Positions 17,869 through 40,642 are shown, numbered from the stretch's first letter. The stretch: 64,000 nt of DNA from Kitasatospora sp. NBC_01287 (GCF_026340565.1 NZ_JAPEPB010000001.1:1426001-1490000); one strand, 5' to 3'. Program-made: numbers and translations. Notes: generated by a model not told the origin, from the sequence alone.

Positions 17869-18645
17869 TCACGCGTCGTCAAGTGCGGCCCGCTCTCGGC
17901 TGGACCGCTCCAGTACGCGCAGGACCAGCAGGGCCGCCAGCGCGAGCACCGCCGCCTTCAGCAGCTCCCAACCCAGCAGGCCCACGACCCCACCGCTGCC
18001 CGCCAGCGCGTCGCGAGCCGCCTCGATGCCCTGCGACATGGGCATCACCTCACCGATCGCGGCAAGCCAGCCGGGTAGCCGGTCGAGAGGGATGTTCACC
18101 CCGCACAGCAGCAGCATCGAGTACAGCACCACGCTGGCGGCGAAGATCGGCTCGCGGGTGCGCAGCCCGATCGCGCCGACGAGCAGGCCGCAGGCACTGC
18201 ACGACATGGCGGTGACCAGGACGGCGAGAGCGAGTCGGGGCAGCGAGCCGAGCGGGACGTGCAGCCAGCCGAGGGCCGTACCGAGGGCCAGCATGACCGA
18301 GGAGGTCAGGGCTCCCATGAGGACCGCCGGCCCGATCCGGCCGCCGAACATCACGGCCCTGTTGGCCGGGGTGGCGAGCACCGCGCTGAGCGTACCGCTC
18401 ACCCGCTCGCCCTGGACGGACATGGCCGGCGCGAACAGGCCCGCCATGGCACACGCGTTCAGCGCGTTGCCCACGACGTAGTACTGGGTCGGATAGGTAC
18501 CCAGGTAGCGGCCGAGATGGACGAACCAGATCAACTGGACCACCGGAACGCCCAGTACCGTGGGAATGAACGCGGAGGGCCGCAACCAGCGGAACAGCGC
18601 GAGGTGGGAACGCCACCCGGCGACGAAGAACAGTCGCAGCGTCAC
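17869..18645 (-). CDS. ABC-2 type transporter permease (second subunit)
   Basis: This 258-residue membrane protein has six predicted helices, among them VVLYSMLLLCGVNIPLDRL near the C-terminal third, typical of ABC-2 permeases that export drugs, lipids or polysaccharides. The GTG start overlaps the stop of the preceding permease gene (GTGA). An ATG 12 codons upstream would overlap that gene further. It is the last gene of the leftward operon and works with the next permease and the ATPase at 19469. Probable role: export of, or self-resistance to, the cluster product. Confidence 0.83.
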   Translation of the reverse strand: MTLRLFFVAGWRSHLALFRWLRPSAFIPTVLGVPVVQLIWFVHLGRYLGTYPTQYYVVGNALNACAMAGLFAPAMSVQGERVSGTLSAVLATPANRAVMFGGRIGPAVLMGALTSSVMLALGTALGWLHVPLGSLPRLALAVLVTAMSCSACGLLVGAIGLRTREPIFAASVVLYSMLLLCGVNIPLDRLPGWLAAIGEVMPMSQGIEAARDALAGSGGVVGLLGWELLKAAVLALAALLVLRVLERSSRERAALDDA

Positions 18646-19472
18646 TGCAACGCCAGCGTGCCGCTGGAGCGAGCCAGCCATTCGAACCTCTTCTGTAGTA
18701 GCAGCGTCACCGCGATGTAGACCGCCGAGAGCAGGGCGCACATGCCCACGGCCGAGCCGGCCCCCGAGGTCCCGGCCGCCGCCCCCTCCAGAGCTTTGAC
18801 ACCCCAGGTGGGCGCGAGGAGATAGGAGATGGACCGGACCGACGCGGGGAGGGTGGAGATGGGCACCAGCATTCCGCTGAGCATCCAGACCGGATACTCG
18901 AAGAAGTTGGCCAGCGACTGCGCGGTCGGGTACAGGATGAACGCGGACGCCATCAGCAGCCCGAGCATCCCCAAGGCCACCACGGTGACCCCCACGGCCC
19001 CGACGAACAGCAGTGGATCCGCGATGTGCAGCGGCATGTCGAACAGCAGCGCGCTCCACAGCAGGGTTGCCACCAGCCCGTAGACCCCCAGGGACGCGGT
19101 CGCGAGGGCGAACGGCAGCGTGATGAGGAAGGTCGATCGGGGGCTGGCGACAAGGGGCTCGAGGATCTGCGACCAGCGCAGCCGATTGATCGCGTTGCCG
19201 GAGCCGAGCAGGGTCGAGGACCACATGCCCATCAGGGCCGCGCTCAGCGCCACGTCGATGGGCGCGACGTGCCGGGTCGAGCTGCGGAACATGTAGAAGG
19301 CCAGCGACGCGAAGATCAGGGGCAGCAGCACGCACTGGAAGAGGTACAGCCGGCTGCGCATCAGCTGCCACAGCTCCAACCGCCAGGAGCGCAGGACGAA
19401 TCCGGTACCCGCCCGCAGCCGACCCGTCGCGGTCGACGCGGTCCACGCGGTCCACGAGGTCGACGCGGTCAC
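18642..19472 (-). CDS. ABC-2 type transporter permease (first subunit)
   Basis: This 276-residue membrane protein has helices at YLFQCVLLPLIFASLAFYMF, LGVYGLVATLLWSALLF, LLFVGAVGVTVVALGMLGLL and near the C-terminus, in the ABC-2 pattern. The first 25 residues are variable. It overlaps the ATPase gene upstream (ATGA) and the second permease gene downstream (GTGA). Two unequal permeases plus one ATPase probably form a heterodimeric exporter. Confidence 0.82.
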   Translation of the reverse strand: MTASTSWTAWTASTATGRLRAGTGFVLRSWRLELWQLMRSRLYLFQCVLLPLIFASLAFYMFRSSTRHVAPIDVALSAALMGMWSSTLLGSGNAINRLRWSQILEPLVASPRSTFLITLPFALATASLGVYGLVATLLWSALLFDMPLHIADPLLFVGAVGVTVVALGMLGLLMASAFILYPTAQSLANFFEYPVWMLSGMLVPISTLPASVRSISYLLAPTWGVKALEGAAAGTSGAGSAVGMCALLSAVYIAVTLLLQKRFEWLARSSGTLALQ

Positions 19473-20446
19473 CGCCCGCCTCCGGAGATCAACGCGACGT
19501 ACGCGTCCTCCAGAGTCGGCTCGCGCTTGAACACCTCGCGTATGGCCACCTCTCGCAACTCGGCCAGGACGGCCGCGGTCACGTCTGTCTCCAGTCCGCT
19601 GTGGATGTCGAGGGACTGGCCGGAGTCCAGCTCGGTCAGGCTCACCGAGCGGATGCCGGGCAGCGCCCGCAGCCGGTTCACGTGCCCGTCGTCGGCGCCG
19701 GTGACGTTCACGGTCAGCACGACCTGGCCGGCGGTCTGCTTCTTGAGGGCCTCCGGGGTGCCCTCGGCGATCTTCTTGCCGTTACGCATCACCGCGACCC
19801 GGTCGCAGAGTTCGTCGGCCTCGAACATGTAGTGCGTGGTGAGCAGCACGGTGCGGCCCTGCTGGTGCACCAGGTCGCGGACCAGGGCCCGCAGTTCCCG
19901 GGCGCCGACCGGGTCGATGCCGTTGCTCGGCTCGTCGAGGATCACCACCTTGGGGTCGTGCAGCAGGCCGCGGGCGATGTGCAGCCGCTGCTTCATGCCG
20001 CGCGAATAGGTCTCCACACGCTTCCGCTCGTTCCCCAGCAGGCCGACCATGTCGAGCAGTTCGGGCACGCGGCGCTTCTGCTCCCGGTACGGGATGCCAT
20101 ACAGGTCCGCGAAGAGCAGAAGGTTGTCCCGGGCCGACAGCCGCGCGTACAGTCCCGCGTCACCGCCGAGGATGACCCCGATCAGCCGGCGCACGGTCTG
20201 CGCTTCGCGCACGACATCGTGACCCAGGACGCTCACTTGGCCGGAGGTCGGCAGCAGCACTGTCATGAGGATCTTCGCGGTGCTGGTCTTGCCGGCCCCG
20301 TTGGGCCCGAGCAGACCCACCATCTCGCCCTGCTCGACGCGCAGCGAGAGTCCGTCCACCGCGCGCTTCACCCGCCCCTGCGGCTCCTGGAAGGTGCGTA
20401 CCAGTGCTTGGATCTCGATGGCGGATCTGGCGGTCAGGTCCTGCAT
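19469..20446 (-). CDS. ABC transporter ATPase (drug-export type)
   Basis: This 325-residue ATPase has Walker A GPNGAGKTS, signature YSRGMKQRLHIA, Walker B VVILDEPSNGID and switch H in LTTHYMFEADELC. A C-terminal ~100-residue extension ends EVFKREPTLEDAYVALISGG, which is typical of DrrA/CcmA-like exporters. The ATG at 20446 has AGAGG upstream. A longer reading from 20536 has no domain content. It lies 58 bases downstream of the condensation-domain gene, so it appears part of the biosynthetic operon. Confidence 0.9.
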   Translation of the reverse strand: MQDLTARSAIEIQALVRTFQEPQGRVKRAVDGLSLRVEQGEMVGLLGPNGAGKTSTAKILMTVLLPTSGQVSVLGHDVVREAQTVRRLIGVILGGDAGLYARLSARDNLLLFADLYGIPYREQKRRVPELLDMVGLLGNERKRVETYSRGMKQRLHIARGLLHDPKVVILDEPSNGIDPVGARELRALVRDLVHQQGRTVLLTTHYMFEADELCDRVAVMRNGKKIAEGTPEALKKQTAGQVVLTVNVTGADDGHVNRLRALPGIRSVSLTELDSGQSLDIHSGLETDVTAAVLAELREVAIREVFKREPTLEDAYVALISGGGR

Positions 20447-20504
20447 CCGAATACCTCTTACTGAAGACCGATGGTGGGGTGCTCTGTTGGCGTACCGCGA
20501 TGGC

Positions 20505-21860
20505 CTAGGAGGCCGTGCGCGCGACCGCACTCTCACATGTCGCGTACAGCGCCTGCGTGCTGACCTCTGCGTCGACGGCGAGCCGCCGCAACTCCTGGTC
20601 GTACCAGGACAGCAGTGAATGGAGCCGGTCCTCCGGCAGCACTCGCGGATCGGTCCGGATGACGACCGGCATCTCGCGGCCGCCGCGGACCCTCATGTCG
20701 AAGCGCGGGCCGACCTGACGGTTGGGGAGGGTGGCCTCGACCCTGGCGGAGGCGTGACCGGAAGCCGCGGGATACGGCGGCGCCGCCATGATGTCCTGCG
20801 CCATGAAGTTGTAGAAGTTGTCGAAGCCGAGCTCGATGCCACGCTCCGCGCGCACCAGAGCGGTGACTTCGTCGATGTCGTAGGCGCCGAAGCGGTAGGA
20901 CCGGAGCGCGGCGGCCTGGACGGACGCGGCGTACCGGCCGAAACCGTCAGGCGCCGCGCCGATGTCCAGCGGCAGCGGGGCGTACTGGTTCATCGAGCTG
21001 ACCAGATCCTGCCAGGGCAGCCGAAAGCGGTTGCTCGACTGCAGGGTGAGCACCACCCGCGCCGTCCCGCTGACCACGGCCAGAGCCACCGAGCTGAGTG
21101 CCAGCAGCACCCCGTGGGCCGGCACCCCCAACCGTTCGGCCGCGGTGGCCAGCGCCGAGCGGGCCCCCGGTGACCGCAGGACCGCCTCGATCCGTCCCGG
21201 ATCCTGATCGCCGTGATCCGGCACCGGGAACACGCCCGGATCGAGCGTGTCCAGCAGCCGCGTCCAGTGCGCGAGGGCAGCCGTGCGGCTCGACCGGTTG
21301 GCATCCGATCGCTGGAAGAGGGCCAGCTCGCGCGGCTGCACGGGGGTCTCCGTCAGCCAGCGCCGCCCTTCCGGATCGTCACCACCCATGAGTACGGTCA
21401 GTTCGCCGCTCAGACGGCGCAGCGAGAACCCGTCGGCGGCGATGTGGTCGCAGACGAGGACGACGAAACGGGGACGGCCGCCGTCGGTGACCACGGTGAA
21501 GCGGCGGCCGAAGTCCCTCTCCCGGTCGATCAGCTCGGCCGCCTGCCCGCGCCCGATGGCCATGGCAGCGGACTCATCGGCGCCGGGATCCTCGATGGTG
21601 GCGATCCGCACCCGGTCCTCCACCGGCCGCACGAACTGGATCGGGCCCCGCGGTGTCTCCGCGAAGTGGGTGCGCAGGGACTCATGCCGCTCGCACAGCG
21701 AGCGCAGCCCCGCGTACACCCGATCCAGCGGACACTCGGCCGGTACCGGGACGACGACACTCAGGTACGTCTCCGGCCAGCGATCGGTCGGCCAGCGGGC
21801 GGTGATCCGCAAGACGGACAGCTGGCCGAAGGTCAGCGGTGTACGGTCAGCCTCGGACAC
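20505..21860 (-). CDS. Stand-alone NRPS condensation-domain protein
   Basis: This 451-residue protein is a free condensation domain, which normally joins two carrier-protein-bound acyl groups by an amide or ester bond. It opens with PLTFGQLSVLRI (C1-like), has RHESLRTHF (C2 region) and VLVCDHIAADGFSLRRL at the catalytic site. The usual HHxxxDG reads DHIAADG, so the second (catalytic) His139 and Asp143-Gly144 are kept but the first His is Asp. The GTG at 21860 has GGAAGGA upstream. The frame stays open to 22097 without domain content. No carrier or adenylation domain is fused, so it must work with the free carrier proteins and the adenylation-PCP protein of the cluster. Confidence 0.85.
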   Translation of the reverse strand: MSEADRTPLTFGQLSVLRITARWPTDRWPETYLSVVVPVPAECPLDRVYAGLRSLCERHESLRTHFAETPRGPIQFVRPVEDRVRIATIEDPGADESAAMAIGRGQAAELIDRERDFGRRFTVVTDGGRPRFVVLVCDHIAADGFSLRRLSGELTVLMGGDDPEGRRWLTETPVQPRELALFQRSDANRSSRTAALAHWTRLLDTLDPGVFPVPDHGDQDPGRIEAVLRSPGARSALATAAERLGVPAHGVLLALSSVALAVVSGTARVVLTLQSSNRFRLPWQDLVSSMNQYAPLPLDIGAAPDGFGRYAASVQAAALRSYRFGAYDIDEVTALVRAERGIELGFDNFYNFMAQDIMAAPPYPAASGHASARVEATLPNRQVGPRFDMRVRGGREMPVVIRTDPRVLPEDRLHSLLSWYDQELRRLAVDAEVSTQALYATCESAVARTAS

Positions 21861-21996
21861 GGGCTCCGTCCTTCCTCTATGCCTGTTCAGGTGCCGCTCG
21901 CACGTGTCGATCGAGACGGCGGGCCCAGGATCTGAGCCGGACATCGAAATCCTGCGGTCGATTCGCCGCACCGGGTGGCTGCCGACCGGTGGCCGG

Positions 21997-22806
21997 TCAG
22001 AGTCCCAGCGCCTCCCGGACCGAGGCCGGCCAGTCACCGGCCGACCGGCCGTGGCGGTGCTGGAGCGCGAGCACCAACCGGTCCAGGCCGAAAGCAAGAC
22101 AGGCGCTGTGCGCCACCGAGCCGTCCGTCAGCGTGAGTCCGAACGCCGCGCCGAAGTGGTCCTTGTGGCCGTTGGCCGAGGCCACCGACTGCGTCTGCCC
22201 GTGGCCGAGCCGAGTCACGATCTCCCACTTGAGTTCCCCGGTGCGCTGGACCGCCGCCATCAACCGCCCGGGCCGGCCGAAGAACGGGTCGTTCGCGGCG
22301 ACCACCTCGACTGCCAGGCCGAGTCCGCCGAGCCAGGTGACAGCCGATTCCAGCACCCGGTCGCGCCAGTCCATCACCGCTTCCGGGGCGCCGAACCGGA
22401 CGACCTCGTACATCCGGAAGGCGCGCAGCCGCCCGGTCTCCGCAGTCGCCTCGCCGCGATAGCAGACGGCTTCCACGCTCAGTTGCCGTTCGGTGCCGAG
22501 CACGCTGCCCGCGAGCAGGGGATACACGTGGTGGCAGGCCGCCGGGGACAGCACCAGGTCGGTCGGGCCGGCCGCACCGCCCTCGGGGGCGCCGTACACG
22601 GTTCCCAGCAACTGCGGGAACGAGGTCGGATAGTCCGCCCGTTCGGCGACCGTCCGGGCGATCACCGGGGGGGCCAGATAGTGCTCTTCACTCCCGTAGA
22701 AGGCCGCGGCGAGGCCGATCCGCAGGCCGTCCAGGATCCGCGCTTCGGCAGCCGGGGTGAGTACCACCCCGGGTGCCCGGAGAGTCGGGTCCGGTGGCAT
22801 CGTCAT
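21997..22806 (-). CDS. Amino acid:[carrier protein] ligase (SerRS-like, class II aaRS homolog)
   Basis: This 269-residue class II aminoacyl-tRNA-synthetase catalytic core lacks a tRNA-binding domain. Proteins of this family, related to archaeal-type seryl-tRNA synthetase, activate small amino acids and load them on the phosphopantetheine of a carrier protein instead of tRNA. Readable features are motif 2 (CYRGEATAETGRLRAFRMYEVVRFG, with Arg/Glu and the second Arg) and motif 3 (FGLDRLVLAL). The likely zinc ligands are Cys91, Glu134 and Cys236, a Cys-Glu-Cys pattern with family-like spacing. It overlaps the acyl-CoA-dehydrogenase-like gene by four bases, and two free carrier proteins lie just upstream, the expected acceptors. 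Substrate choices from the family are glycine, alanine or serine. This sequence does not settle which. Confidence 0.85.
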   Translation of the reverse strand: MTMPPDPTLRAPGVVLTPAAEARILDGLRIGLAAAFYGSEEHYLAPPVIARTVAERADYPTSFPQLLGTVYGAPEGGAAGPTDLVLSPAACHHVYPLLAGSVLGTERQLSVEAVCYRGEATAETGRLRAFRMYEVVRFGAPEAVMDWRDRVLESAVTWLGGLGLAVEVVAANDPFFGRPGRLMAAVQRTGELKWEIVTRLGHGQTQSVASANGHKDHFGAAFGLTLTDGSVAHSACLAFGLDRLVLALQHRHGRSAGDWPASVREALGL

Positions 22807-23954
22807 CGTTCTCCTCGGGAGAGCAGTACCGTCCGGGCGTTGGCGGCGAGCAGCCGGCCATTGCCGATCATCAGCGGGGCGGAGTAGGCATCACGCAGGA
22901 TCCGCGCCACCGAGTACGGACCGCGTTCGGCGAAGCCGGCCATGCCGCACACCTGCAATGCCAGGTGGGCCGTCTCCACGGCCCCTTCGGACACCGAGAT
23001 CTTGAGGGCGTTCAGCTGCGCGCCGAGCCCCAGCGTGGGTTCCCGCCCGGCGTCGAAGACCGGCTCCACGGCGCGCACGGCCGCGTCGAGTTGTGCGCGC
23101 ATCGCGGTCAACCTCAGATGTGCCCGGGCGAGTTCGGGTACCGCGGCGGTGGGATCGGCCGGAGCCCGCCCGCGGACGGAGCGCACCGCCCGGTGCACCG
23201 ACTCGGCGGCCAGTCCGCTCCACACGCCGGCCCAGAGCAGGTGGGAGACCGGCACCATGGTCTCGGCGGCGACGGTCCGGAACGGTACCGGCAGGATCTG
23301 GTCCCGCTGGAAGGCGGCCCGGATCCGGAACGCCGGACTGCAGGTACCCCGCATGCCGAGGACGTCCCACTCCCCCTGCTGCTCCAGTTCGACCTGGTCG
23401 CGGGTCACCAGGACGGCGACCTGGTTACCGGTGTCCGCGTCGGCCGTGCGACGGGCGGTGACCAGATAGGCGTCGGCCCCGGCCCCGTAGGAGACGGTCG
23501 TGCCGTCCTTCTCCAGGGTCTGCCGTCCGTCCGGTCCGTCCGCCAGGCTGCTGAGGCTGCTGCGCAGGTCGCCACCGACACCGCGCTCGCTGGTGACCGA
23601 GGCGATCAGCCATCGCTCGGCCACCGCCTTCCGCAGCAGCGGCGATTCTCGGTGGTGCCTTACCAGGCAGGCCAGTTGAGCCTGGTGCATGGCCCAGATC
23701 ATCGCCGAGGAGCCGCAGCTACGGGCGAGGCGCTCGGCGATCCGCACCAGCGCGGGGAGACCGAGCCCCAGTCCGCCGAACTCCCGGGGCGCGATCGCCG
23801 CCATCAGGTTGGTGTCGCGGAGCACTTGGAGTGCCTCGGTGGGTAGCCGCGCGCCGCGGTCGACATCGGCCGCGCTGGCAGCCGCCTGCTCGGCTGCCGC
23901 GGTCAGCGCGAGCTCCAGTTCCGGGGTGAACCCCCGCGGGTCGGTCTCAGTCAC
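22803..23954 (-). CDS. Acyl-CoA dehydrogenase-like flavoprotein
   Basis: This 383-residue protein has the acyl-CoA dehydrogenase fold: a helical N-domain (LRDTNLMAAIAPREFGGLGLGL), a middle beta domain (WLIASVTSERGVGGDLRSS, GEWDVLGMRGTCSPAF) and a C-terminal helical domain (LQVCGMAGFAERGPYSVARILRDA). At the place where fatty-acyl enzymes have the catalytic base in YEGT, this protein reads LMIGNGRLL, so the glutamate is missing there. Position between a carrier protein and the aaRS-like ligase suggests it oxidises an aminoacyl or hydroxyacyl group on that carrier. The GTG start overlaps the carrier-protein gene by eight bases. Confidence 0.83.
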   Translation of the reverse strand: MTETDPRGFTPELELALTAAAEQAAASAADVDRGARLPTEALQVLRDTNLMAAIAPREFGGLGLGLPALVRIAERLARSCGSSAMIWAMHQAQLACLVRHHRESPLLRKAVAERWLIASVTSERGVGGDLRSSLSSLADGPDGRQTLEKDGTTVSYGAGADAYLVTARRTADADTGNQVAVLVTRDQVELEQQGEWDVLGMRGTCSPAFRIRAAFQRDQILPVPFRTVAAETMVPVSHLLWAGVWSGLAAESVHRAVRSVRGRAPADPTAAVPELARAHLRLTAMRAQLDAAVRAVEPVFDAGREPTLGLGAQLNALKISVSEGAVETAHLALQVCGMAGFAERGPYSVARILRDAYSAPLMIGNGRLLAANARTVLLSRGER

Positions 23955-24207
23955 TGGAAACGGCCTTCTTCTCATTCAGCAGTTCGACCAGCACCGCCTC
24001 AAGACTGCGGATACTGGCAAAGGTCTCCCGGGTCAGCGCGCGCTCCGGAAGCTCCACGCCGAAGTGGTCCTCCAGCAGCATCATCATCTGCACACTCGTC
24101 ATGGAGTCCATGCCGGCGTCCCACAGGTCGGTGTCAGCCGCCACTCCTGGAACGATGTCCTGGAGTTTGGGGATGACGGTAATGACCTTCCTGATCTCCT
24201 CAGTCAT
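23947..24207 (-). CDS. Acyl/aminoacyl carrier protein (first)
   Basis: This 86-residue free carrier protein carries phosphopantetheine on Ser35 in WDAGMDSMTSVQMMMLL. It starts at an ATG with GGAGG eight bases upstream. The ~60-residue acidic four-helix core is intact. It directly precedes, and slightly overlaps, the acyl-CoA-dehydrogenase-like gene and lies close to the aaRS-like ligase, making it a candidate substrate of both. Confidence 0.9.
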   Translation of the reverse strand: MTEEIRKVITVIPKLQDIVPGVAADTDLWDAGMDSMTSVQMMMLLEDHFGVELPERALTRETFASIRSLEAVLVELLNEKKAVSSD

Positions 24208-24284
24208 CACAGCTGCCTCCCGGCCTTTCGACATCAGCTCGTCATTGGGATCAAACAGGCGCACCCGGACGAAGTCCGGTTCGA

Positions 24285-25136
24285 TCACCAGCCGTTGAGA
24301 TGCGAGACCGAGCCGAAGTCGACCTCGGGGCCGTAGGCCGCCAGCGCTTCGCCCATCCGGTCGCCGGCCGCGCGTCCCACCGGGGACGGGACGGCGAGCC
24401 GGTCGGCCAGGTCGAACGCGTGGCCGAGGTCCTTCACCATGTAGCCGAGCTTGAAGCCGGCCTCGAAGTCGCCGACCAGGACCCGGTTCGGGTAGAGGCC
24501 GGCGAGCTGCGCGTTGGCGCCGCCCCCGCCACTGGTGATGGCCTCGATCGCCAGGCGCGGGTCCACCCCGGCCTCGCGGGCCATGGCGAGCACCTCGCCG
24601 GAGGCGACCGCGGTGACGGCGACCAGGTAGTTGTTGAGCAACTTGACGGTCAGGCCCGCGCCCACCGGCCCGCAGTGCCGCAGCTTCTCCGGATCGCCGA
24701 TGGCGGTCAGTACGGGCCGGGCACGCTCCACCGCCGCCTCGGAGCCGCCGACCCAGAAGGCCAGCGCTCCGGCGCGGACCGCCGCGATGCCGCCGCCGGC
24801 CGGGGAGTCCAGGTAGGCCACACCGTGCCGCCGCGCCTCGGCGGCCAGCTCCCGGGCGACCTGCGGGGAGTGCGTCGTCATCTCCAGCAGGACGGACCCT
24901 GGTTGAGCCGTCGTCAGCAGGGACCTCACCACCGAGCGGACCTCGGCGGCATCGGGCAGGATGGTGCAGATCACCTCGGCCTGCTCGGCGGCGGCCTCGG
25001 GAGTGTCGACCACCGACCAGCCGCTCGGCAGTCGCCCGGGGGAGCGCGAGGAGACGACCACCTCGTGCCCTGCCGCCAACAGGCGTTCCACCATGGGAGC
25101 GCCCATCAGGCCGGCGCCGACGAATCCGACCCGCAT
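24285..25136 (-). CDS. NAD(P)-dependent beta-hydroxyacid dehydrogenase (3-hydroxyisobutyrate DH family)
   Basis: This 283-residue dehydrogenase has a Rossmann start (MRVGFVGAGLMGAPMVERLL), the substrate-binding segment YLDSPAGGGIAAVRAG (usually DAPVSGG) and the catalytic lysine Lys165 in GAGLTVKLLNNYL. Family members oxidise the beta-hydroxyl of small acids, and some act on free L-serine. The ATG at 25136 overlaps the stop of the second carrier-protein gene (TGATG). A GTG one codon earlier is possible. Next to carrier proteins and an aminoacyl-loading enzyme it could oxidise a carrier-bound seryl group to the aldehyde. That is inference. Confidence 0.87.
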   Translation of the reverse strand: MRVGFVGAGLMGAPMVERLLAAGHEVVVSSRSPGRLPSGWSVVDTPEAAAEQAEVICTILPDAAEVRSVVRSLLTTAQPGSVLLEMTTHSPQVARELAAEARRHGVAYLDSPAGGGIAAVRAGALAFWVGGSEAAVERARPVLTAIGDPEKLRHCGPVGAGLTVKLLNNYLVAVTAVASGEVLAMAREAGVDPRLAIEAITSGGGGANAQLAGLYPNRVLVGDFEAGFKLGYMVKDLGHAFDLADRLAVPSPVGRAAGDRMGEALAAYGPEVDFGSVSHLNGW

Positions 25137-25396
25137 CACCCACGCTCCGCGGTGATGAAGGCGTAGGCGCTTCGCAGCGACGAGATCATACTGATGTTGA
25201 GCGTGTCGATGTCGATCTCGGCACCACGTTGCTGCTCCAGGAAGTCGAGGAAGGCCAACGAGCCGAGCGAGTCCAGGACTCCGCTCTCGAACAGGTCGGT
25301 CTCGGGCTCCAGTCCGGAGCTGTCCGCGCCGATCTCCGCGAGGAACTGGACGGCGTTCCGCACGAACTCGTCCTCCGAAGGCATGATGGTCGGCAT
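25136..25396 (-). CDS. Acyl/aminoacyl carrier protein (second)
   Basis: This 86-residue carrier protein has its phosphopantetheine site Ser43 in LFESGVLDSLGSLAFLDFL. The SG(V/L)LDSLG form is common in carrier proteins that pair with amino acid:carrier-protein ligases. It differs clearly from the first carrier protein (DAGMDSMTS). It is tightly coupled to the hydrolase gene upstream (TAATG) and the dehydrogenase gene downstream (TGATG). Confidence 0.9.
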   Translation of the reverse strand: MPTIMPSEDEFVRNAVQFLAEIGADSSGLEPETDLFESGVLDSLGSLAFLDFLEQQRGAEIDIDTLNISMISSLRSAYAFITAERG

Positions 25397-26388: not shown

Positions 26389-27107
26389 CTGCTTCTCCGC
26401 TCGGACGGTTCCGGGTACCGCAGCACGAGGAGCTCGGCCCCCTCGGCTCCGGCGGTCAGGATGGCCGGCCCGTCACCGGGCGCCTGCCAGCCGATCGATT
26501 CGGGCCCGTGGTCACCCTCGACGCCCGCCACCGAGACCGCGCCGGCCGCGACGTACAGGAACTGCCCGCCCGGCCCGGCAGCCGGGACGGAGAGCTCCGC
26601 CCCGGGGCCGGCGGAGCGGCGGCCGACCCGCAGGCCGTCCCGGTCGTCGGCCAGCAGCGCCTCCCCGTCGTCCGTTCGGGCCAGGTCGATCCCCGCGTGC
26701 AGGCTGCGCCCGGCGTGGGGTGGAAGCAGGGCCCGGGACTCGGGCATGAACGAGGTGGTCAGGGTCGGCTCGGCCCGCAGGGTGAAGTAGCGCAGCGGTG
26801 GGCTGCCGCCGGCCAGCGGGCCGTAGACGGTGAAGGCGTCGGCGTAGTGCACCTCCAACGCGCCGATCGGCCGCCGTCCGAACAGTGAGCCGGTGGCGCC
26901 CAGCAGGACCTGGAACTGGTCGACGGGGTGGAAGTGCGGGCGCAGCACGTAGTCGTGCTGCTCCACCAGGTACGCCTGCGGACCGCCGCCGACCGGGGCC
27001 GCGCCGCCGAAGTAGTCGACGATCCTGCTGATCCGGCCCTCGAAGACGACTCGCCGGGACACCGCCTGCCCAGGGCTGACGAACTGGGGTTGGGCCAAGG
27101 GGTCCAC
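26385..27107 (-). CDS. Cupin-fold protein
   Basis: This 240-residue protein contains RPHFHPVDQFQVLLG, matching cupin motif 1 (HxH with a later acidic or Gln ligand). A second beta-rich half (PGGQFLYVAAGAVSVAG) suggests two cupin-like barrels. It may be a metal-dependent oxygenase, isomerase or binding protein. The sequence does not decide. The start is a GTG five bases after the aldolase stop, and its end overlaps the hydrolase gene (ATGA). Confidence 0.75.
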   Translation of the reverse strand: MDPLAQPQFVSPGQAVSRRVVFEGRISRIVDYFGGAAPVGGGPQAYLVEQHDYVLRPHFHPVDQFQVLLGATGSLFGRRPIGALEVHYADAFTVYGPLAGGSPPLRYFTLRAEPTLTTSFMPESRALLPPHAGRSLHAGIDLARTDDGEALLADDRDGLRVGRRSAGPGAELSVPAAGPGGQFLYVAAGAVSVAGVEGDHGPESIGWQAPGDGPAILTAGAEGAELLVLRYPEPSERRSR

Positions 27108-27112
27108 CTTCG

Positions 27113-27862: not shown

Positions 27863-28000
27863 AGCTGCGCCCTCTCATCGGTCCCATGGCCGCCGCGCGT
27901 CAAGTCGCCCCGGCTGCGGGGGGGGGTGTGGCGTGAGTGGTGCTGTATCGGGAGGGTGCCGGGCCGGAAGGGTGCCGGGCCGGGAGGAGTCCAGGCCGGA

Positions 28001-33052: not shown

Positions 33053-33738
33053 TCGCCGGCGTCACGCACGTGACCATGGAAGCCGGCCTGGACGCGGGTG
33101 TGGCGGCAGGGCGGTCGTGGGGATTCGAGCCGGAGCTCCGCGACGCGGTCGCCCTGCCGGCCTCCTTCGAGTGCGTCGGGGAGACGGACCACGTCCTGCC
33201 GCTGGCGCTGCTCTCCGGCCCGCCCGGCATCCGGCTCGAAGTGGTCGACCATGGCGGCGACTCCGGTCAGCCGAGCGCCTACGCACCGATCCCGCGCCGG
33301 TCGGCCGAGGCCGGATTCGCCGGCCTCAGCTGCACGGTCCCCGACACCGCGGCGGAGGCCGCGTTCTGGTCGGGCTTCGCCCGGGCGCGTTGGGCCGGAC
33401 CGGGCCCGGGAACGGTGCGTGGGACCATCCCCTCGCCGCTGCCCGGGATGGACTGCGAGTTCGAGCTCGTGCCGGGTACGCGGGGCGAGGGGCAAGTCCA
33501 TGCCATGAACGACCGGGGCTTCCCGTCCATCGGGGTGTTCAGCACCTCGATGGAGCGGGACTGCGCCCGCGCGGTCCGCCTCGGCGCGAAGCTCCGCTCC
33601 GCGGCGATCACCACCACCGTGGGTGGGCGACCGCTGCGGATGGCACTGATCGAAACGCCCGGTGGGGCCCCTGTCGAGTTGCTGGCCGCGGCCAGGATCA
33701 CTGGAGAGAAGGAGACGGCGAATGGTCTTTCGACTTGA
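33049..33738 (+). CDS. VOC-fold protein of the cluster
   Basis: This 229-residue protein has two VOC-like halves: [20 protein letters not shown] at the start, a central [20 protein letters not shown], and [20 protein letters not shown] at the end. The last block is the usual metal-ligand strand. Members include lyases, epimerases, dioxygenases and drug-binding resistance proteins. The GTG start overlaps the acyl ligase stop, and its 3' end overlaps the next GNAT gene by 17 bases. Confidence 0.75.
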
Positions 33739-34348
33739 GGGACCGGTGCTGGAAGGCACCCTGGTGCGGCTGGAGCCGATGGGCCTCCAGCACGCCGAGG
33801 CGATGGCGGCCGCCGCCGAGGAGGGCCGGGAGTCCTACGACTTCACCTGGGTGCCCACGGCGGACGAGGTGGAGAAGTACATCCACGCCCAGCTCGGCCG
33901 CGCCGAGACCGGCCGGCTCGCCCCGTACGTGCTGATCTCACCGGCCGACGGCCGGGTGCTCGGCGCCACCGCGTACTGGGACCCGCGCCTGCGGCCGGGC
34001 GGCGACCGACTGTCCGCGGTCGAGGTCGGGTTCACCTGGCTGTCCGCCTCCGCGCAGGGCACCGGGGTCAACACCGAGGCCAAGTACCTGCTGTTCAGGC
34101 ACGCCTTCGAGAGCTGGGAGGTGGCCCGGGTGGATCTGAAGACCGATGCCCGCAACGCCCGCTCCCGGGCCGCGATCGAGGCGGTGGGGGCCCGGTTCGA
34201 GGGGGTGCTGCGGAACTGGTCGCCGTCCTGGGCGCCCGGCGAGGACGGACTGCTCCGGGACTCCGCGATGTTCTCGATCGTGGCGCAGGAGTGGGCGCGC
34301 TGCCGAGCCGGGTTGGAGGCCCGCCTGAGCCGGATCGCGGGGCCCTGA
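33722..34348 (+). CDS. RimJ/RimL-type GNAT acetyltransferase
   Basis: This 208-residue acetyltransferase has [18 protein letters not shown] at the start, [20 protein letters not shown] (acetyl-CoA loop) and [21 protein letters not shown], all typical of the RimJ/RimL group that acetylates amines. The ATG at 33722 has GGAGA close upstream. A role in self-protection or product acylation is likely. It is the second GNAT in the operon, and the two are not similar. Confidence 0.87.
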
Positions 34349-34352
34349 TCGT

Positions 34353-35267
34353 ATGCGGCCTGGCATCCATCTCTCCGCGATCGCTTATGAGTTGGGCGAT
34401 CCGGTGGCCATCGGGACCCTGGACGACCCGGAGGTCGCCGAGCGGCTCCACGCGCTCGGCTCCGACGGGTTCCGGCGCTGCCGGGTGGCCGGGGCCTCGG
34501 CGGCGGCGCTCGGAGCGGCGAGCGCCCGCCGGACACTTGAGCGGTGCGGCGGCCCGGAGCCGGCCGCCGTGGTCTTCTCCACCGAGTCGACCCGGCTGGT
34601 CTCGGCCACCCAGAACACCTGGGAGCTGCTGCGAGCCGTCCCGCTGCCGCGTACCTCGACGCTCACGGTCGGCGGCAACGGCTGCGGCAACCTCGCGCCG
34701 GCCCTCCGGGCCGCCCGTGACCTGGTGCTCGCGGAGGACGCCGACAGCGTACTGCTCACCCTCGCCGATCGGTTCACCCTCGGCACCCGGTACCAGCCGG
34801 TCGGCAATACCGTGATGAGCGACAGCGCCGTCTCCTGCCTGATCACCCCGGCCCCGCTCGGAGCCGGCTTCCAGCTCCTGGCAATGGCCACCGCCGTCAA
34901 TGCCGACCTGCTGCCGGAGACCAGGAAGCTCCTGGGTGCCCGCACCGTCATGCGGGCGATCGGTCGCGCCCTGGACGAGATCAACTCCCGTGTCCAGCAG
35001 CCGGAGCGGGGCTTCGACTGGTTCGTCACCGGCAACTACGACCGCTCCACGCGGCGGTTCCTCGCCTCCGCCGTCCAGATGGACGACTCCAGGGCGCAGG
35101 CGCCGAACATCGCGGAGTACGGCCACTGCTACGCCGCGGATCAGCTCATCACGCTCGCGACCCTGGAGCGGTCCGGCGCCCTGCGCCACGGGCAGCGGCT
35201 GCTGCTGCTCGCCACCAGCGCCCGGGCATGGTCACTGATCGCCCTCGAATACAGTGAGTTGGGGTAA
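34353..35267 (+). CDS. KAS III-like thiolase-fold condensing enzyme
   Basis: This 304-residue protein resembles 3-oxoacyl-[ACP] synthase III. The nucleophile is Cys111 in VGGNGCGNLAPALRAA. The rest of the triad is unusual: the place of the first His reads TGNYDRS (Asn228), while the second conserved site reads NIAEYGHCYAADQ with His258 where FabH has Asn. Altered triads are known in KAS III-like enzymes that make esters or amides rather than decarboxylative C-C bonds. It lies between the GNAT gene and the NRPS gene and could condense or transfer an acyl unit. Confidence 0.82.
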   Translation: MRPGIHLSAIAYELGDPVAIGTLDDPEVAERLHALGSDGFRRCRVAGASAAALGAASARRTLERCGGPEPAAVVFSTESTRLVSATQNTWELLRAVPLPRTSTLTVGGNGCGNLAPALRAARDLVLAEDADSVLLTLADRFTLGTRYQPVGNTVMSDSAVSCLITPAPLGAGFQLLAMATAVNADLLPETRKLLGARTVMRAIGRALDEINSRVQQPERGFDWFVTGNYDRSTRRFLASAVQMDDSRAQAPNIAEYGHCYAADQLITLATLERSGALRHGQRLLLLATSARAWSLIALEYSELG

Positions 35268-35269
35268 GC

Positions 35270-37288
35270 ATGGCGCTCTGGGACAACCTGGACGAGACGA
35301 CCTTCGACGTGGTCAGGAACGCCAGGGGGCAGTACTCGATCTGGCCGGCCGGCCGGCCCCACCCGCCGGGCTGGGCCGCGGCCGGGTTCTCCGGGACGCG
35401 GCCGAGTTGCCTGGCGGAGATCGACCGGATCTGGGCCCCGGGCCCACCCGCCGCCGGCGTGGCCGCCCGGCCCGGTGAACTGCCGGACGGCGCGGCGCTG
35501 GCGGGACCGAGCCGCGAGCTGCCGGACACCTCGATCATGGCGCTGATCAGGGCCCGGGAGCTGCCGGAGGGTCGACTCGCCGTACGATACGGCGCAGAGC
35601 GCCTGACCCGGGGCGAACTGCTGGACACCTCGGCACTCTGGGCCCGGGCCCTCGCCGACGCGGGCTGCGGCCGCGAGGTCCCGGTGGCGATCCTGCTGCC
35701 GCGCGGGCCGGAGGCCCTGGTCGCGATTCTCGCCGTGCTGGAGGCCGGCGGCGCGTACGTCGCGCTCGCCTGCGACCAGCCGGTGGAGCGCATCCGAGCG
35801 GTGCTGGACGACTGCGGCGCACACATCGCGGTCGCCACCGAGGAACTCGCCCCCGAACTGGCCGGACCCGGCCGGACGCTGCTGACCGTCGCCGAGCTGG
35901 CCGAGCGGGGAGCGGCCTCGACCACGGTGCCCCGGCCCGCCTCGGGGGAGGATCTCGCCTTCGTCTTCTACACCTCCGGCACCACCGGCGAACCCAAGGG
36001 TGTCGAGGGCACCCACGCCCAGCTGGTCAACTACGCCCTCTGGTGCGGCAGGGCGTTCGCCCACCGGAGGGAGGAGAGCACCTTCCTCAGCGGGGCGTTG
36101 TACTTCCTCGGCTCGCTCACCACGATCTTCACACCGCTGTTGGAGGGCTGGCCGATCACCGTGGCACCCGACGGCGCGACCACCGACGAGCTGCTCGCGG
36201 TCGCCGCGAGCACCGAGGGCGGTCTGCTCAAGCTGACCCCGACGCACATCCGGATGATGATGGCCAGAGGAGTCCCGGAGACCGGCCTGGCTCGTCAACT
36301 CATGATCGGCAGTGAGCCGTTGGTCTTCACCGAGGAGATCAGCCAGTGGCTGGCCGCCGACCCCGAGCGGGTGCTGGTGAACCACTACGGGCTGACCGAG
36401 ACACACGGCTGCTTCTGCCACTGGCTGGGCGGCGACGAGCGGATCGGCGGCCGGGTGCCGATCGGCACGCCGATCGACAACGTCGAGGCCTACGTCGTGG
36501 GCCGCGACGGCGAGCTCCTCGGCGTCGACGAGATCGGTGAACTCCTGGTCGGTGGGCCATCGTTGGGGCGTGGCTACCGGAACCGTCCGGCGCTGACGGC
36601 CGAGCGCTGGCTCCCGCACCCCTGGGGTGCCGAGGGCGCCAGGCTGCTGCGAACCGGTGACCTGGCCAGGGTGGACGCCGACGGTGTCGTCACCGTGCTG
36701 GGCCGCGCCGACCGGCAGGTCAAGGTGCGCGGACACCGGGTGGAACCGGCCGCCGTGGAGGAGGCGCTGCGAAGCCTGCCGAACGTCAAGGAGGCCCTGG
36801 TGCTGCCACGCCAGGAGGAGGGCCGGACCACCCTGGCGGCGTACCTGCTGCACGCTCCCGGCGCCGGGATCGACCTGGTGGCGACCAGGACGGCGCTGGA
36901 GCGGCTCTTTCCCCCGCAGTGGATTCCGGGCCGGATGGCGGCGGCCACCGAGTTCCCGGTGAACGCCAACGGCAAGGTCGACACCCGGGCGCTGCCCGAG
37001 GCGCTGCCGATCGTCCCGCCCACGCCGGCCGGCCCCGGGGCGGGCCGCTGGAGCCGGCTGGACCGGCTCGTCGCGGACGCGTTCTGCGACATCCTGCGGA
37101 TCGACTCGATCGGGCTCGGCGACGGCTTCCACGACCTCGGCGGTGACTCCCTGACGGCCGTGCAGGTCGCCGCCAGGATCGGCCGGGAGCTGGGCCGGGA
37201 CGTCCCGGCCCCGTCCGCCGACGCCACCACCGTCCGGGCCTATGCGGAACTGGTCGCCGCCGGCGCTGCCCCAGGGCAGGCGCGGTGA
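35270..37288 (+). CDS. MbtH-adenylation-PCP fusion (NRPS protein)
   Basis: This 672-residue NRPS protein has three parts. Residues 1-~58 are an MbtH-like domain (MALWDNLDETTFDVVRNARG, then QYSIWPAGRPHPPGWAAAGF). Residues ~90-560 are an adenylation domain with VFYTSGTTGEPKGV (A3), NHYGLTETH (A5), LLRTGDLARVDADGV (A7), GRADRQVKVRGHRVE (A8) and NANGKVDTR (A10 Lys). The C-terminus is a PCP with Ser627 in DLGGDSLTAVQV. In the A4 region (LYFLGSLTTIFTPLL) the usual Asp that binds the alpha-amino group appears replaced, so the substrate may not be a standard alpha-amino acid. Fused MbtH is uncommon but known. It is coupled to the reductase gene by a GTGA overlap. Confidence 0.9.
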   Translation: MALWDNLDETTFDVVRNARGQYSIWPAGRPHPPGWAAAGFSGTRPSCLAEIDRIWAPGPPAAGVAARPGELPDGAALAGPSRELPDTSIMALIRARELPEGRLAVRYGAERLTRGELLDTSALWARALADAGCGREVPVAILLPRGPEALVAILAVLEAGGAYVALACDQPVERIRAVLDDCGAHIAVATEELAPELAGPGRTLLTVAELAERGAASTTVPRPASGEDLAFVFYTSGTTGEPKGVEGTHAQLVNYALWCGRAFAHRREESTFLSGALYFLGSLTTIFTPLLEGWPITVAPDGATTDELLAVAASTEGGLLKLTPTHIRMMMARGVPETGLARQLMIGSEPLVFTEEISQWLAADPERVLVNHYGLTETHGCFCHWLGGDERIGGRVPIGTPIDNVEAYVVGRDGELLGVDEIGELLVGGPSLGRGYRNRPALTAERWLPHPWGAEGARLLRTGDLARVDADGVVTVLGRADRQVKVRGHRVEPAAVEEALRSLPNVKEALVLPRQEEGRTTLAAYLLHAPGAGIDLVATRTALERLFPPQWIPGRMAAATEFPVNANGKVDTRALPEALPIVPPTPAGPGAGRWSRLDRLVADAFCDILRIDSIGLGDGFHDLGGDSLTAVQVAARIGRELGRDVPAPSADATTVRAYAELVAAGAAPGQAR

Positions 37289-38313
37289 CCGTCCTGCTGA
37301 CCGGGGCCACCGGCTTCCTCGGTGCGGCTCTTGCGAATCGCCTGCTCACCCGCGGCCACACGCTGCGCTGCGTCGTCCGGGGAGCCACCGACGAGGAGCG
37401 GCGGGCGAAACTGCACGCCGCGCTGCCGGACGCGGACCAGCGCCGGCTGGAGGTGGTGGCGGGGGATCTCGCGGCGCGGGACCTCGGTCGGTCGGCGGCG
37501 GAGCTGGCCGCCCTGGGCCAGGGCGTCACCCACGTGGTGCACTGCGGCGCGCGGGTGAACATGACTCTGCCCTACACCGCGCTGCACCGGACCAACGTCG
37601 GCGCCACCGAGACCCTGTTGAGCCTCGCGGAGACGGCCTCGGCCGCGTTCTGCTACGTGGGCAGCCTGGCGGCGGTCGCCCGGACGGTGACCGGTGAGCC
37701 GTTCGAGCTGATCGATCCGGTGTCCGGCGGCTACGGCCAGTCCAAGTGGGCGGCGGATCGGCTGGTCAGCGTGGCGCACCAGGAAGGCCGGGTCCGGGCG
37801 GTGATCCTGCGGCCGGGCCGGGCGACCGCGGACTCCCGTACGGCGCTGGGGAATCCGGACGACCTGCTGGAGCAGGTGCTCCGGCTCTGCCTGCGGCTCG
37901 GCGTCGCTCCGGCCCTGGAGACCGGGGTCCGGCTCAGCCCGGTCGACTGGATGGCGGAGCTGGCCGTCCTGCTGGCCGAACGGGCGCCCGCCCAGGGCCG
38001 GGCCTATCACCTGGTCCGCGCCGAATCGCTCCGCTGGGGCGAGGTGCTGGACGTGCTGCGCGAGGTCAGGCCGGAGCTGGCGCGACTCCCCTACCCGAGC
38101 TGGCGTGAGCTGGTGACCGAGGCCGGCCGGACGGACCCGGGGACGGCGCGGCTGGCCACCTCACTGCCACCGCAACCGCTGGTCTTCGACGGTCACCCCG
38201 CCAACCGCCCGACCAACGCCCGCCGCACGTTGACCGACGCCCATCCCGAACCTCCCGCCGCGGAGATGCTGTTGAGGGCCTCGGTGGCGGTCTGGGAGCG
38301 GGACCGGCCATGA
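37285..38313 (+). CDS. Thioester reductase-like NAD(P)H-dependent SDR
   Basis: This 342-residue extended SDR resembles NRPS terminal reductase domains. The cofactor motif is TGATGFLGAALANRLL, followed by VVRGATDEERRAKL, YVGSLAAV (catalytic Ser) and the YGQSKW catalytic Tyr/Lys. It is a free version of the R domain that reduces a PCP thioester to an aldehyde or alcohol. The four-base overlap with the adenylation-PCP gene supports direct action on that carrier. It predicts an aldehyde, alcohol or imine in the product. Confidence 0.88.
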   Translation: MTVLLTGATGFLGAALANRLLTRGHTLRCVVRGATDEERRAKLHAALPDADQRRLEVVAGDLAARDLGRSAAELAALGQGVTHVVHCGARVNMTLPYTALHRTNVGATETLLSLAETASAAFCYVGSLAAVARTVTGEPFELIDPVSGGYGQSKWAADRLVSVAHQEGRVRAVILRPGRATADSRTALGNPDDLLEQVLRLCLRLGVAPALETGVRLSPVDWMAELAVLLAERAPAQGRAYHLVRAESLRWGEVLDVLREVRPELARLPYPSWRELVTEAGRTDPGTARLATSLPPQPLVFDGHPANRPTNARRTLTDAHPEPPAAEMLLRASVAVWERDRP

Positions 38314-39386
38314 CCGCGCGTCTCCTGCCCCTGCACGAGGAGCACACCGCGCTCGGCGCCCGGATGGTCGAGAGCGACGGCTGGCTGCTGCCCCTGGAGT
38401 TCACCGGCGCGTTCCAGGAGTACCGGGCCCACCGCAGCCGCAGCGTGCTCTGGGACGCCTCCGACCTCGGCTCGATCCTGGTCTCCGGGCCCGGCGCCTT
38501 CGAGGCCCTCCAGCGCACCTTCACCAACGACCTGCGCCGGATACGGCCGGGCCGGAGCCAGTACACCTTCCTGCTGGCGGCGGCCGACGCCGGTGTGGTG
38601 GACGACCTGATGGTCTGGTGGGTGGCGGAGGACCGGTTCGTGCTGACGCCGAGCCGCCCGGATCCGGTGCTCCGGGCCCTTCGGGCCACCGCGGGGCCGG
38701 CGCCGGCCTGCACCGTCGAGGACGTCTCCGGGGCCCGGGTGCTGCTCGCGCTCCAGGGAGCCGAGGCAGTGGCCCGGTTGGCGCCGATCGTCCCGGAGGC
38801 CGCCGCCATGCCGCTGTTCGGCGTGCGCGAGGTCGAGGTCGAGGACGGGTGGGGGTTGATCGCCACCACCGGCTTCGGCCGTCGGCTCGGCTTCGAGCTC
38901 GACCTCCCGATCGCCGCCGCCCGCGCCGTGCACCGCCGTCTGATCGACGCGGGTGTGGTCCCGGCGGGTCTCGCCATGCGCGAGACACACCGCCTGGAGT
39001 CCGGGACGCCCCGGCACGGTTACGAGCTGGGCCCCTCGATCGATCCGCTGGAGGCGGGCTGCGCCCGCGCGGTCGCCTTGGACACCGAGTTCGTCGGCCG
39101 TGCGGCCCTGCTGGCCAGGCGGGCCGACGGCCCGACCAGGATGCTGCGCTCGGTGGTCCTGGACAGTCGCCAAGCACCCTCCACAGGGAGCGAGTTGATC
39201 CACAACGGCGCGCAGGTGGGCCGGATCACCAGCGGGAACTACTCGTTCCGGCTGCACCGCGGGCTGGGCCTCGCGTTCGTGAGCCCGGAGGTGCCCGTGG
39301 GCAGCACGGTCTGCGTCCGGACCGCGCGCGGGGAGGTGGGCGGCACGGTCGGTGTCGTCCCCGTCGAGTGGGAGGGCGTTCGGTGA
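38310..39386 (+). CDS. GcvT-like (aminomethyltransferase-fold) protein
   Basis: This 358-residue protein has the glycine-cleavage T-protein/folate-binding fold: SVLWDASDLGSILVSGPGAFE, TNDLRRIRPGRSQYTFLLAA, GVVDDLMVWWVAEDRF and GLAMRETHRLESGTPRHGYELG. The family binds tetrahydrofolate and moves one-carbon units or demethylates. The rest of a glycine cleavage system is absent, so it probably serves the cluster, for instance by adding or removing a folate-linked carbon on an amine. It overlaps genes on both sides (ATGA and GTGA). Confidence 0.85.
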   Translation: MTARLLPLHEEHTALGARMVESDGWLLPLEFTGAFQEYRAHRSRSVLWDASDLGSILVSGPGAFEALQRTFTNDLRRIRPGRSQYTFLLAAADAGVVDDLMVWWVAEDRFVLTPSRPDPVLRALRATAGPAPACTVEDVSGARVLLALQGAEAVARLAPIVPEAAAMPLFGVREVEVEDGWGLIATTGFGRRLGFELDLPIAAARAVHRRLIDAGVVPAGLAMRETHRLESGTPRHGYELGPSIDPLEAGCARAVALDTEFVGRAALLARRADGPTRMLRSVVLDSRQAPSTGSELIHNGAQVGRITSGNYSFRLHRGLGLAFVSPEVPVGSTVCVRTARGEVGGTVGVVPVEWEGVR

Positions 39387-40642
39387 CACCGCAGGAGGCA
39401 GGGATCAGTGCTGTCGAGATCTTCGATCCGATGAGCCCCCGGGTGCTGGCGGACCCGTACCGGGCCTATCGGGCGCTCCGCGACCACCATCCGGTGGCTC
39501 ATCTGGAGCCGCTGGACCTGTGGGCGGTCAGTCGGTACGCCGACGTCCGGGAGGTGCTGGCCGAACCCGCGGCCTTCTCCGCCGCACTGGCCTTCGGCCG
39601 GGACGCGTCGATCACGGACCGCCGGAGCGAGCCCCGGCGGCAGCTGAACCTACGGTTCTCCGGTGACTTCGGCGGCGTCGTCTCCTCCACCGACGGAGTG
39701 GTGCACGCCAGGCTGCGCCGGATGGTGGCCGGGCTGCTGAGCAAGCCCCGGCTGGACGCCGTGGAACGGTCGGTCGGCGAGCACGTCGAGCGGATCGCGG
39801 CCGGGCTCCGGGCGGCGGGCGACGGTTTCGACCTGGTCGGCGACCTGGCCGGTCCGGTGGCCGCGCGGGCCATCGCCCAGGTGATGGGGCTCGATCAGGA
39901 GATGACCGAGGTCCTGCTCCGCTGGGTCGACCTGACCGCGCGTGCGCTCGACCCCGGTGACCCGCTCAGCACGGTCGAGGCCGCGCCCCGGGTGATGCTG
40001 GCCAACCTGGGCTGCGTCCGGGCCGTCGCGGCCTTCCTGCGGACCGGGACCCGCCACCTCCCGGACCAGCCGCCGAACGGGCTGATGGAGGCGTGGCGGG
40101 CTGCCGACGGCCCGGCCGGCCGGGAGGAGGTGATCCTCTCCGTGCTCCAGCTCTTCCAAGCCGGTTACGAGACCATCGTCTCGGCGGTCTGCTCCACCCT
40201 GGCCGTCTTCGTGGTCGACCGGCCCCTGCCCGATCCGGCCCGGCCGGAGGAGCTCGAACTGCTGATCGGCGAGGGCATCCGGCTCGGCTCCCCGGTCCGA
40301 GCCACGGTGCGGACGGTGGTCGGGGCCCGGCAGGTGGGCGGGGTCTCCGTCCCCGACGGCGCGATGCTGATGCTCCTGCTCGGCTCGGCCAACCGCGACG
40401 AGCGGGTCTTCCCTGATCCCGACCGACCGGCCGTCGGCCGGGCCCCGCACCTGGCCTTCGGCGGCGGTCCGCACCGCTGCCTGGGCAGATATCTCGCGCA
40501 CGCCGAACTGTCCTGCATCCTAAGAGTGTTGACCGAACAGGTGAACCACCTCCGATCCGCTGGAACCGCCCGGATCAGCGCCAACATCCTCAAGGCGGGC
40601 CACGCCTCACTGCCGGTCCAGGCAGAGTGGCGGCGACCATGA
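39383..40642 (+). CDS. Cytochrome P450
   Basis: This 419-residue bacterial P450 has an I-helix with LFQAGYETIVSAV (Gly-Tyr-Glu-Thr in place of AGxxT), the ExxR motif at Glu297-Arg300 and the haem-binding loop FGGGPHRCLGRYL with Cys366. Electrons probably come from the ferredoxin at 28826. It is the last intact gene of the rightward operon. The GTG start overlaps the GcvT-like stop. A reading frame starts in an ATGA overlap at its end but soon degenerates. Confidence 0.93.
   Translation: MTPQEAGISAVEIFDPMSPRVLADPYRAYRALRDHHPVAHLEPLDLWAVSRYADVREVLAEPAAFSAALAFGRDASITDRRSEPRRQLNLRFSGDFGGVVSSTDGVVHARLRRMVAGLLSKPRLDAVERSVGEHVERIAAGLRAAGDGFDLVGDLAGPVAARAIAQVMGLDQEMTEVLLRWVDLTARALDPGDPLSTVEAAPRVMLANLGCVRAVAAFLRTGTRHLPDQPPNGLMEAWRAADGPAGREEVILSVLQLFQAGYETIVSAVCSTLAVFVVDRPLPDPARPEELELLIGEGIRLGSPVRATVRTVVGARQVGGVSVPDGAMLMLLLGSANRDERVFPDPDRPAVGRAPHLAFGGGPHRCLGRYLAHAELSCILRVLTEQVNHLRSAGTARISANILKAGHASLPVQAEWRRP

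Follow-up and report, generated by a model that had tools for sequence, protein, structure and literature searches.

Two divergent operons of a streptomycetaceous genome join a rare core of genes, which recurs in other genomes, to a loading arm that changes from locus to locus, and the two parts probably make up one cluster, which would encode a dissociated NRPS-like pathway with a swappable loader. The window, i.e., the whole stretch of 64,000 nucleotides that was analysed, corresponds to positions 1426001-1490000 of a 9.49 Mb genome in the Streptomycetaceae. An original prediction from this DNA had described an unusual, non-modular NRPS-like cluster, and the analysis supports that description.

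Organization of the cluster

Gene calls placed one operon at 17869-30515 on the minus strand and the other at 31113-40642 on the plus strand, with the divergence point at about 30515-31113, and the parts were identified from these calls combined with Pfam and NCBIfam scans (Table 1). Every part listed in the original prediction was recovered, as were seven genes absent from its list: those for the dehydrogenase, the flavoprotein, the hydrolase, the bicupin-like protein, the AMP-binding ligase, the glyoxalase-like protein and an orphan protein, here called unk441. The operons had been called tightly overlapped, and many neighbouring genes do overlap, by 1 to 17 bases. The bicupin-like protein had no match in the Pfam search, and its plasmid homologues, which lie in seemingly catabolic loci, gave no clue.

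Table 1. Genes of the two operons, with the part of the cluster to which each belongs and the basis of its identification; percentages are protein identities to relatives.
Product	Part	Position	Strand	Basis and remarks
ABC permease 2	arm/export	17869-18645	-	PF12698/PF01061
ABC permease 1	arm/export	18642-19472	-	PF01061 E 1e-8
ABC ATPase, DrrA-like	arm/export	19469-20446	-	PF00005 E 1e-29
Free-standing condensation domain	arm	20505-21944	-	PF00668 E 3e-11
Class II aaRS-derived amino acid:[carrier protein] (aa:CP) ligase	arm	21997-22806	-	NF005479 E 6e-67; PDB 4h2w E 4e-47
Acyl-CoA-dehydrogenase-fold (ACAD-fold) flavoprotein	arm	22803-23954	-	PF02771/PF00441
Carrier protein 2, GMDSM	arm	23947-24288	-	PF00550 E 9e-9; true start possibly further in
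NAD-dependent 3-hydroxyacid dehydrogenase, tartronate-semialdehyde-reductase-like	core	24285-25136	-	PF03446/PF14833; TIGR01505 E 4e-49; 72-77%
Carrier protein 1	core	25136-25396	-	PF00550 E 1e-5; 58-62%
Alpha/beta hydrolase	core	25396-26388	-	PF07859 E 4e-71
Bicupin-like protein	core	26385-27107	-	by eye, HxH...Q and two half repeats; 56-65%
HpaI-type aldolase	core	27113-27862	-	PF03328 E 3e-45
Haem-oxygenase-like dimetal oxidase (HDO)	core	28001-28759	-	PF14518 E 5e-15; AF2 pLDDT 90.5
Ferredoxin	core	28826-29059	-	PF13459 E 3e-12; 64-72%
Orphan protein unk441	core	29190-30515	-	start uncertain; 66-72%
GNAT 1	core	31113-31550	+	PF00583 E 3e-14
AMP-binding ligase	core	31547-33052	+	PF00501 E 2e-44; 72-75%
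Glyoxalase-like (VOC) protein	core	33049-33738	+	PF18029 E 0.003, below cut-off; 44-50%
GNAT 2	core	33722-34348	+	PF13302 E 8e-15; none seen in M. tarensis
KASIII-like enzyme	core of some members	34353-35267	+	PF08541 E 2e-7; 61% in G1124 and NBC_00572 only
MbtH-A-PCP fusion	core	35270-37288	+	PF03621, PF00501, PF00550
Free-standing thioester reductase	core	37285-38313	+	PF07993 E 2e-40; YxxxK kept
GcvT-like protein	core	38310-39386	+	PF01571 E 4e-51; 56-64%
Cytochrome P450	core	39383-40642	+	PF00067 E 3e-12; start approximate; 55-63%

A rare core conserved across genomes

Between 15 and 17 genes, drawn from both operons, recur with 44-78% protein identity to the window in five other genomes (G017, G063, G176, G1124 and Micromonospora tarensis), and a reduced copy is found in Streptomyces sp. 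NBC_00572. All 17 core genes of Table 1 are present in the window and in G1124, 16 in each of G017, G063 and G176, 15 in M. tarensis and 13 in NBC_00572; the KASIII-like gene was seen in three core loci, those of the window, G1124 and NBC_00572. The loci of M. tarensis and NBC_00572 were found by searching GTDB contigs for unk441, and that of G1124 by the same search of a Streptomyces sample. The core is rare, as an HDO with at least 76% identity occurs in 4 of 395 Streptomycetaceae genomes, the window's own counted, and all four carry the core.

That core genes of both operons recur together points to more than chance, and the rearrangement of gene order between lineages while the content is kept argues for selection on the set. 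A gene set retained both in Streptomycetaceae and in a Micromonospora very probably yields a product that benefits the organisms carrying it. A single pathway had been claimed for the two operons, with their separate occurrence in relatives named as evidence against it; core genes of both strands lie together in the five other genomes, which upholds the claim at least for the core, and the ligase arm falls outside what is conserved.

The reduced copy was considered as a minimal working pathway, but the idea was given up, since G1124, a close relative of NBC_00572, has 17 of 17 genes. Genome-wide, NBC_00572 has no cassette-type MbtH-A-PCP, reductase, GcvT-like protein or P450, the best paralogues being 33-36% identical; its sole GcvT relative reaches 34%, compared with 56-64% for the GcvT-like proteins of the core relatives. 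Its dehydrogenase frame is fused to a ParB-like frame, and this joined frame, together with the complete set in G1124, makes decay of the NBC_00572 copy likely.

The variable arm and its loader

The arm consists of the aaRS-derived ligase, carrier 2, the ACAD-fold flavoprotein, the condensation domain and the ABC exporter, and its composition differs in each relative. After the G1124 core come ABC genes and then genes for an AMP-binding enzyme, a PLP-decarboxylase::ACAD fusion, a carrier and a condensation domain; the ACAD is 36% identical to that of the window, the carrier 33% and the condensation domain 31%. This one genome thus holds a similar arm, with an ordinary adenylation enzyme replacing the aaRS-derived ligase. 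Though seen once, the swap gives the best evidence from context that the aaRS-derived ligase takes the role of an adenylation enzyme, and it hints at what such ligases are for.

The mobility of the arm also bears on whether there might be two pathways side by side, one for a core product and one for a separate arm product, which share the neighbourhood and the minus-strand operon. This is unlikely, even though the carrier-ACAD-ligase order is found without the core in two genomes (G064 and G052), the arms of different core-bearing loci do not consist of orthologues, and NBC_00572 has no arm genes in the 41 kb examined, a copy that may be decayed. Against it, arm and core genes of the window overlap by a few bases inside one minus-strand operon, the core again adjoins condensation domains in G1124, G017, G063 and M. 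tarensis (in G017 and G063 with an aa:CP ligase as well), and the G1124 arm has an ACAD, a carrier and a condensation domain in common with that of the window. No aa:CP ligase was seen in the stretches examined of M. tarensis and G176. The A-PCP-ACAD genes of M. tarensis were tried as a mirror of the arm and rejected, as the A domain looks like a fatty acyl-AMP ligase and the ACADs are of the usual kind.

The single cluster with a swappable arm is the reading followed here, and its loader belongs to a common type of neighbourhood. The window's genus was sampled with 70 genomes. Of 60 ligase loci, almost all of them in this genus, 58 have a carrier within 4 kb, 41 a condensation domain and 5 an ACAD; the corresponding counts for control ORFs on the same contigs were 4, 1 and 0 of 71. 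The neighbourhood profiles were trained on the same ligase loci that they scored, and about 20 of the 60 seem to belong to a single widespread cluster family, which makes the counts non-independent. The combination of ligase, carrier and condensation domain is common in the genus, and thus not unusual. The original prediction was wrong to count the aaRS-derived ligase, free carrier and free condensation domain, together at 41 of 60 loci, among parts seldom found together.

The ligase itself is a protein of 269 residues in which Pfam finds the class II core alone, without an N-terminal tRNA-binding domain. Its NF005479 match, although strong, is below the equivalog cut-off of that model. In the alignment it keeps all three zinc-site columns of Bll0957, those of the zinc ligands C131, E176 and C279. 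The condensation domain reads DHIAADG in place of HHxxxDG, i.e., the second His and the DG are kept and the first His is replaced, and it is 41% identical to an M. tarensis condensation domain that adjoins MbtH-A-PCP. The ACAD-fold flavoprotein aligns an Ile with the catalytic E376 of MCAD, and the relatives aligned from G064, G1124 and G052 have no Glu there either; the enzyme may therefore use another base or be of an oxygenase type. With carrier, flavoprotein and condensation domain beside the ligase, and an adenylation substitute in G1124, a natural-product role for this ligase is directly testable.

The oxidase, the ferredoxin and the orphan protein

The predicted structure of the HDO, a confident one, has the seven-helix haem-oxygenase fold, and its top PDB matches in Foldseek are BesC (the best, TM 0.75), CADD and HrmI. 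The candidate ligands E92, H102, E162, H198, E203 and H206, assigned by alignment, are invariant in the cassette copies and form a putative three-His/three-carboxylate metal ligand set; the last helix has one residue more between ligands than that of BesC. A profile of the HDO found no match among PDB sequences, and a single-sequence search gave weak ones.

The ferredoxin had been paired with the P450. Both are present, but the ferredoxin gene belongs to the operon of the HDO and unk441 and stays beside the HDO in NBC_00572, where a core-type P450 is absent, so that it is probably the partner of the HDO, rather than or besides that of the P450.

The orphan protein unk441 has no match in Pfam (even at E 1), NCBIfam or the PDB, and its predicted structure has a pLDDT of 43. 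It is very rare elsewhere: 395 other genomes sampled from the Actinomycetota and 340 other Micromonosporaceae contained none, although both scans scored few candidates per genome and may miss distant homologues; a plasmid search gave no match. Distant homologues, 23-28% identical, were located in three genomes. That of G1381 lies beside an HDO, a Rieske-type protein, a ferredoxin and a ValRS-like gene, and the neighbours of that in G1424 are a Rieske-type protein, a ferredoxin and a DUF3050 protein with a further match to the haem-oxygenase-like family, the Rieske and ferredoxin labels being read from sequence motifs. The G068 homologue is fused to a UDP-sugar-dehydrogenase-like domain, with genes for SerRS, GluRS and an aa:CP ligase nearby. 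Nine residues (E335, A337, G341, H342, G346, R352, D374, R376 and R379) are invariant across ten unk441 sequences. That unk441 repeatedly lies near proteins of the haem-oxygenase fold and near ferredoxins suggests that they work as partners.

One form of such a partnership would have the HDO N-oxygenate a lysine-type amine in the manner of HrmI, with unk441 as coupling enzyme and a nitro, hydroxylamine or N-N product of the core. The HDO segment DEMGxGxPxxxH resembles HrmI, a 54% homologue of the HDO adjoins genes for a diaminopimelate decarboxylase and a LysE-type transporter, and aminoacyl-tRNA synthetase genes occur in the vicinity of some unk441 relatives. The idea is improbable all the same, as HrmI ranks in Foldseek behind BesC, which cleaves C-C bonds, and the cluster showed neither a VlmA-type PF09924 gene nor one for a hydrazine synthetase. 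A VlmA/azoxy pathway for unk441 was rejected because VlmA is a PF09924 protein and unk441 matches no Pfam family.

Core enzymes and the proposed pathway

Among the core enzymes, the aldolase and dehydrogenase would form a pair like GarL and GarR in glucarate catabolism. The KASIII-like enzyme keeps its Cys, and the motifs at the His and Asn positions read Asn and His, giving Cys-Asn-His in contrast to the Cys-His-Asn of FabH-type enzymes. The A domain of MbtH-A-PCP, whose code read by hand is L-G-T-K-L-I-H-G-C-K, has Leu at the position of GrsA Asp235 in six of six copies, which suggests, without proving it, a substrate that lacks an ordinary alpha-amino group. The Asp is not strictly required, as McyG has Val at this position yet activates phenylalanine (PMC11253843).

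The free reductase with its YxxxK motif adjoins MbtH-A-PCP in six genomes, and it might serve as the final release step towards a cyclic imine or a small peptide aldehyde, in line with the guess of the original prediction. A published account (PMC10548850) describes small peptide aldehydes made by NRPS-like enzymes of Streptomyces lividans with a tRNA-utilising enzyme. Here the thioester reductase is the sole pointer to such a product, which is doubtful: the reductase could instead yield an alcohol, or supply the GcvT-like, P450 or KASIII enzymes with an intermediate, and ordinary alpha-amino acids are probably not substrates of the A domain.

From the anatomy and co-occurrence described above, we infer, with moderate confidence, the following chemistry for a single dissociated pathway. 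The AMP-binding ligase would load a small acid onto carrier 1, and the dehydrogenase, the HpaI aldolase and the HDO with ferredoxin and unk441 would build and oxidise a unit. MbtH-A-PCP would activate an unusual acid, probably other than an ordinary alpha-amino acid; the reductase would release the acyl unit as an aldehyde or alcohol, and the P450 and the GcvT-like protein may tailor it. In the arm, the aaRS-derived ligase would attach a small amino acid to carrier 2, and the flavoprotein would oxidise the resulting aminoacyl thioester. The condensation domain would then couple the oxidised aminoacyl unit with the core unit, and secretion of the result presumably falls to the exporter.

A wider reading is offered tentatively, with somewhat less than even confidence. 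It holds that unk441 is the first member of a new enzyme family, one that acts with haem-oxygenase-fold oxidases and a ferredoxin in an undescribed oxidation, and that the cluster represents a new product class with the aaRS-derived ligase and an adenylation enzyme as interchangeable loaders, which would give such ligases a defined natural-product role. An orphan family tied to a haem-oxygenase-fold oxidase could give rise to new oxidative chemistry.

Comparison with known systems

No characterised cluster of such content was found in the open literature, a search that lay outside MIBiG, and within this scope the original prediction's failure to match a known product family was borne out. The parts belong to known families; their combination, and unk441, match nothing described in the searchable sources. 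The congocidine/distamycin system is a dissociated NRPS with free-standing A, PCP and C units that act in trans, and it is non-modular like the window cluster, with a gene content that is not known to be related.

The azoxy clusters of valanimycin and azodyrecin (VlmA, VlmL SerRS) are similar in their aaRS-derived enzymes, in a possible N-oxidation and in KASIII-like genes, which lie near some VlmA genes (PMC9379638). VlmA is defined there as PF09924, and the azoxy clusters differ in that no such protein is among the window proteins scanned. The HDO shares its fold and candidate ligands with BesC (C-C cleavage), HrmI (N-oxygenation) and MboA-MboB (alkyne formation), and its pairing with ferredoxin parallels the MboA-MboB pair (PMC13185094). 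It differs from known HDOs in its low identity (about 22% to BesC) and its constant unk441 partner.

The known aa:CP ligases (Bradyrhizobium Bll0957; PDB 3mey, 4h2w), whose biological role has been called unknown in a review (PMC9437257), have in common with the window ligase a SerRS-related class II core without the tRNA-binding arm, the zinc-site columns and a free carrier close by. Unlike them, the window ligase lies inside a large biosynthetic cluster, together with a flavoprotein and a condensation domain.

Related Loci Within and Beyond the Core Cassette

The combination of a class II aaRS-derived amino acid:[carrier protein] ligase (aa:CP ligase), a condensation domain, a carrier and a KASIII-like gene, often with an ABC transporter, forms a widespread, separate cluster in the genus. 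It was found at L026 (G000:C1:774000-793999), which lies in the window's own genome, and at about 20 similar loci, for example L018-L024, L027, L028 and L081-L086.

In NBC_00572, deletion of the neighbouring block running from MbtH-A-PCP to the P450 is suggested, because the frame of the core dehydrogenase and a ParB-like one are joined at the edge of its reduced core. Two other core-bearing relatives were inspected for the genes beside the core (Table): those of G017 make up another, different variable arm, and the decarboxylase fusion in G1124 is unusual.

Two of the loci in the Table, those of G068 and G1381, carry distant homologues of the orphan core protein unk441. A UDP-sugar-dehydrogenase-like domain is fused to unk441 in G068, and the 840-aa protein of the G1381 locus was without a Pfam match.

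Table. Inspected loci, with coordinates counted within each stretch
Stretch	Source	Position	Features
L045	NBC_00572	1090-2877	Core dehydrogenase frame joined to ParB-like frame
L048	G017:C34	10813-16134	RraA-like aldolase, class III and class I aminotransferases, E1 dehydrogenase subunit, condensation domains
L136	G1124	4794-7277	PLP-dependent ornithine/DAP/arginine-type decarboxylase fused to acyl-CoA-dehydrogenase-fold domain
L129	G068:C4	1696-17560	SerRS, GluRS-type, aa:CP ligase, radical SAM, TauD and cupin genes; unk441 fusion
L131	G1381:C21	10291-19226	Consecutive HDO, distant unk441, Rieske-type, ferredoxin, 840-aa protein, ValRS-like gene
L077	Streptomyces sp. NBC_01717 plasmid	15854-26731	HDO, diaminopimelate decarboxylase, LysE-type transporter, two ATP-grasp genes, methyltransferase

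The haem-oxygenase-like dimetal oxidase (HDO) on the Streptomyces plasmid, 54% identical, adjoins the genes listed with it, and these represent a further uncharacterised HDO cluster.
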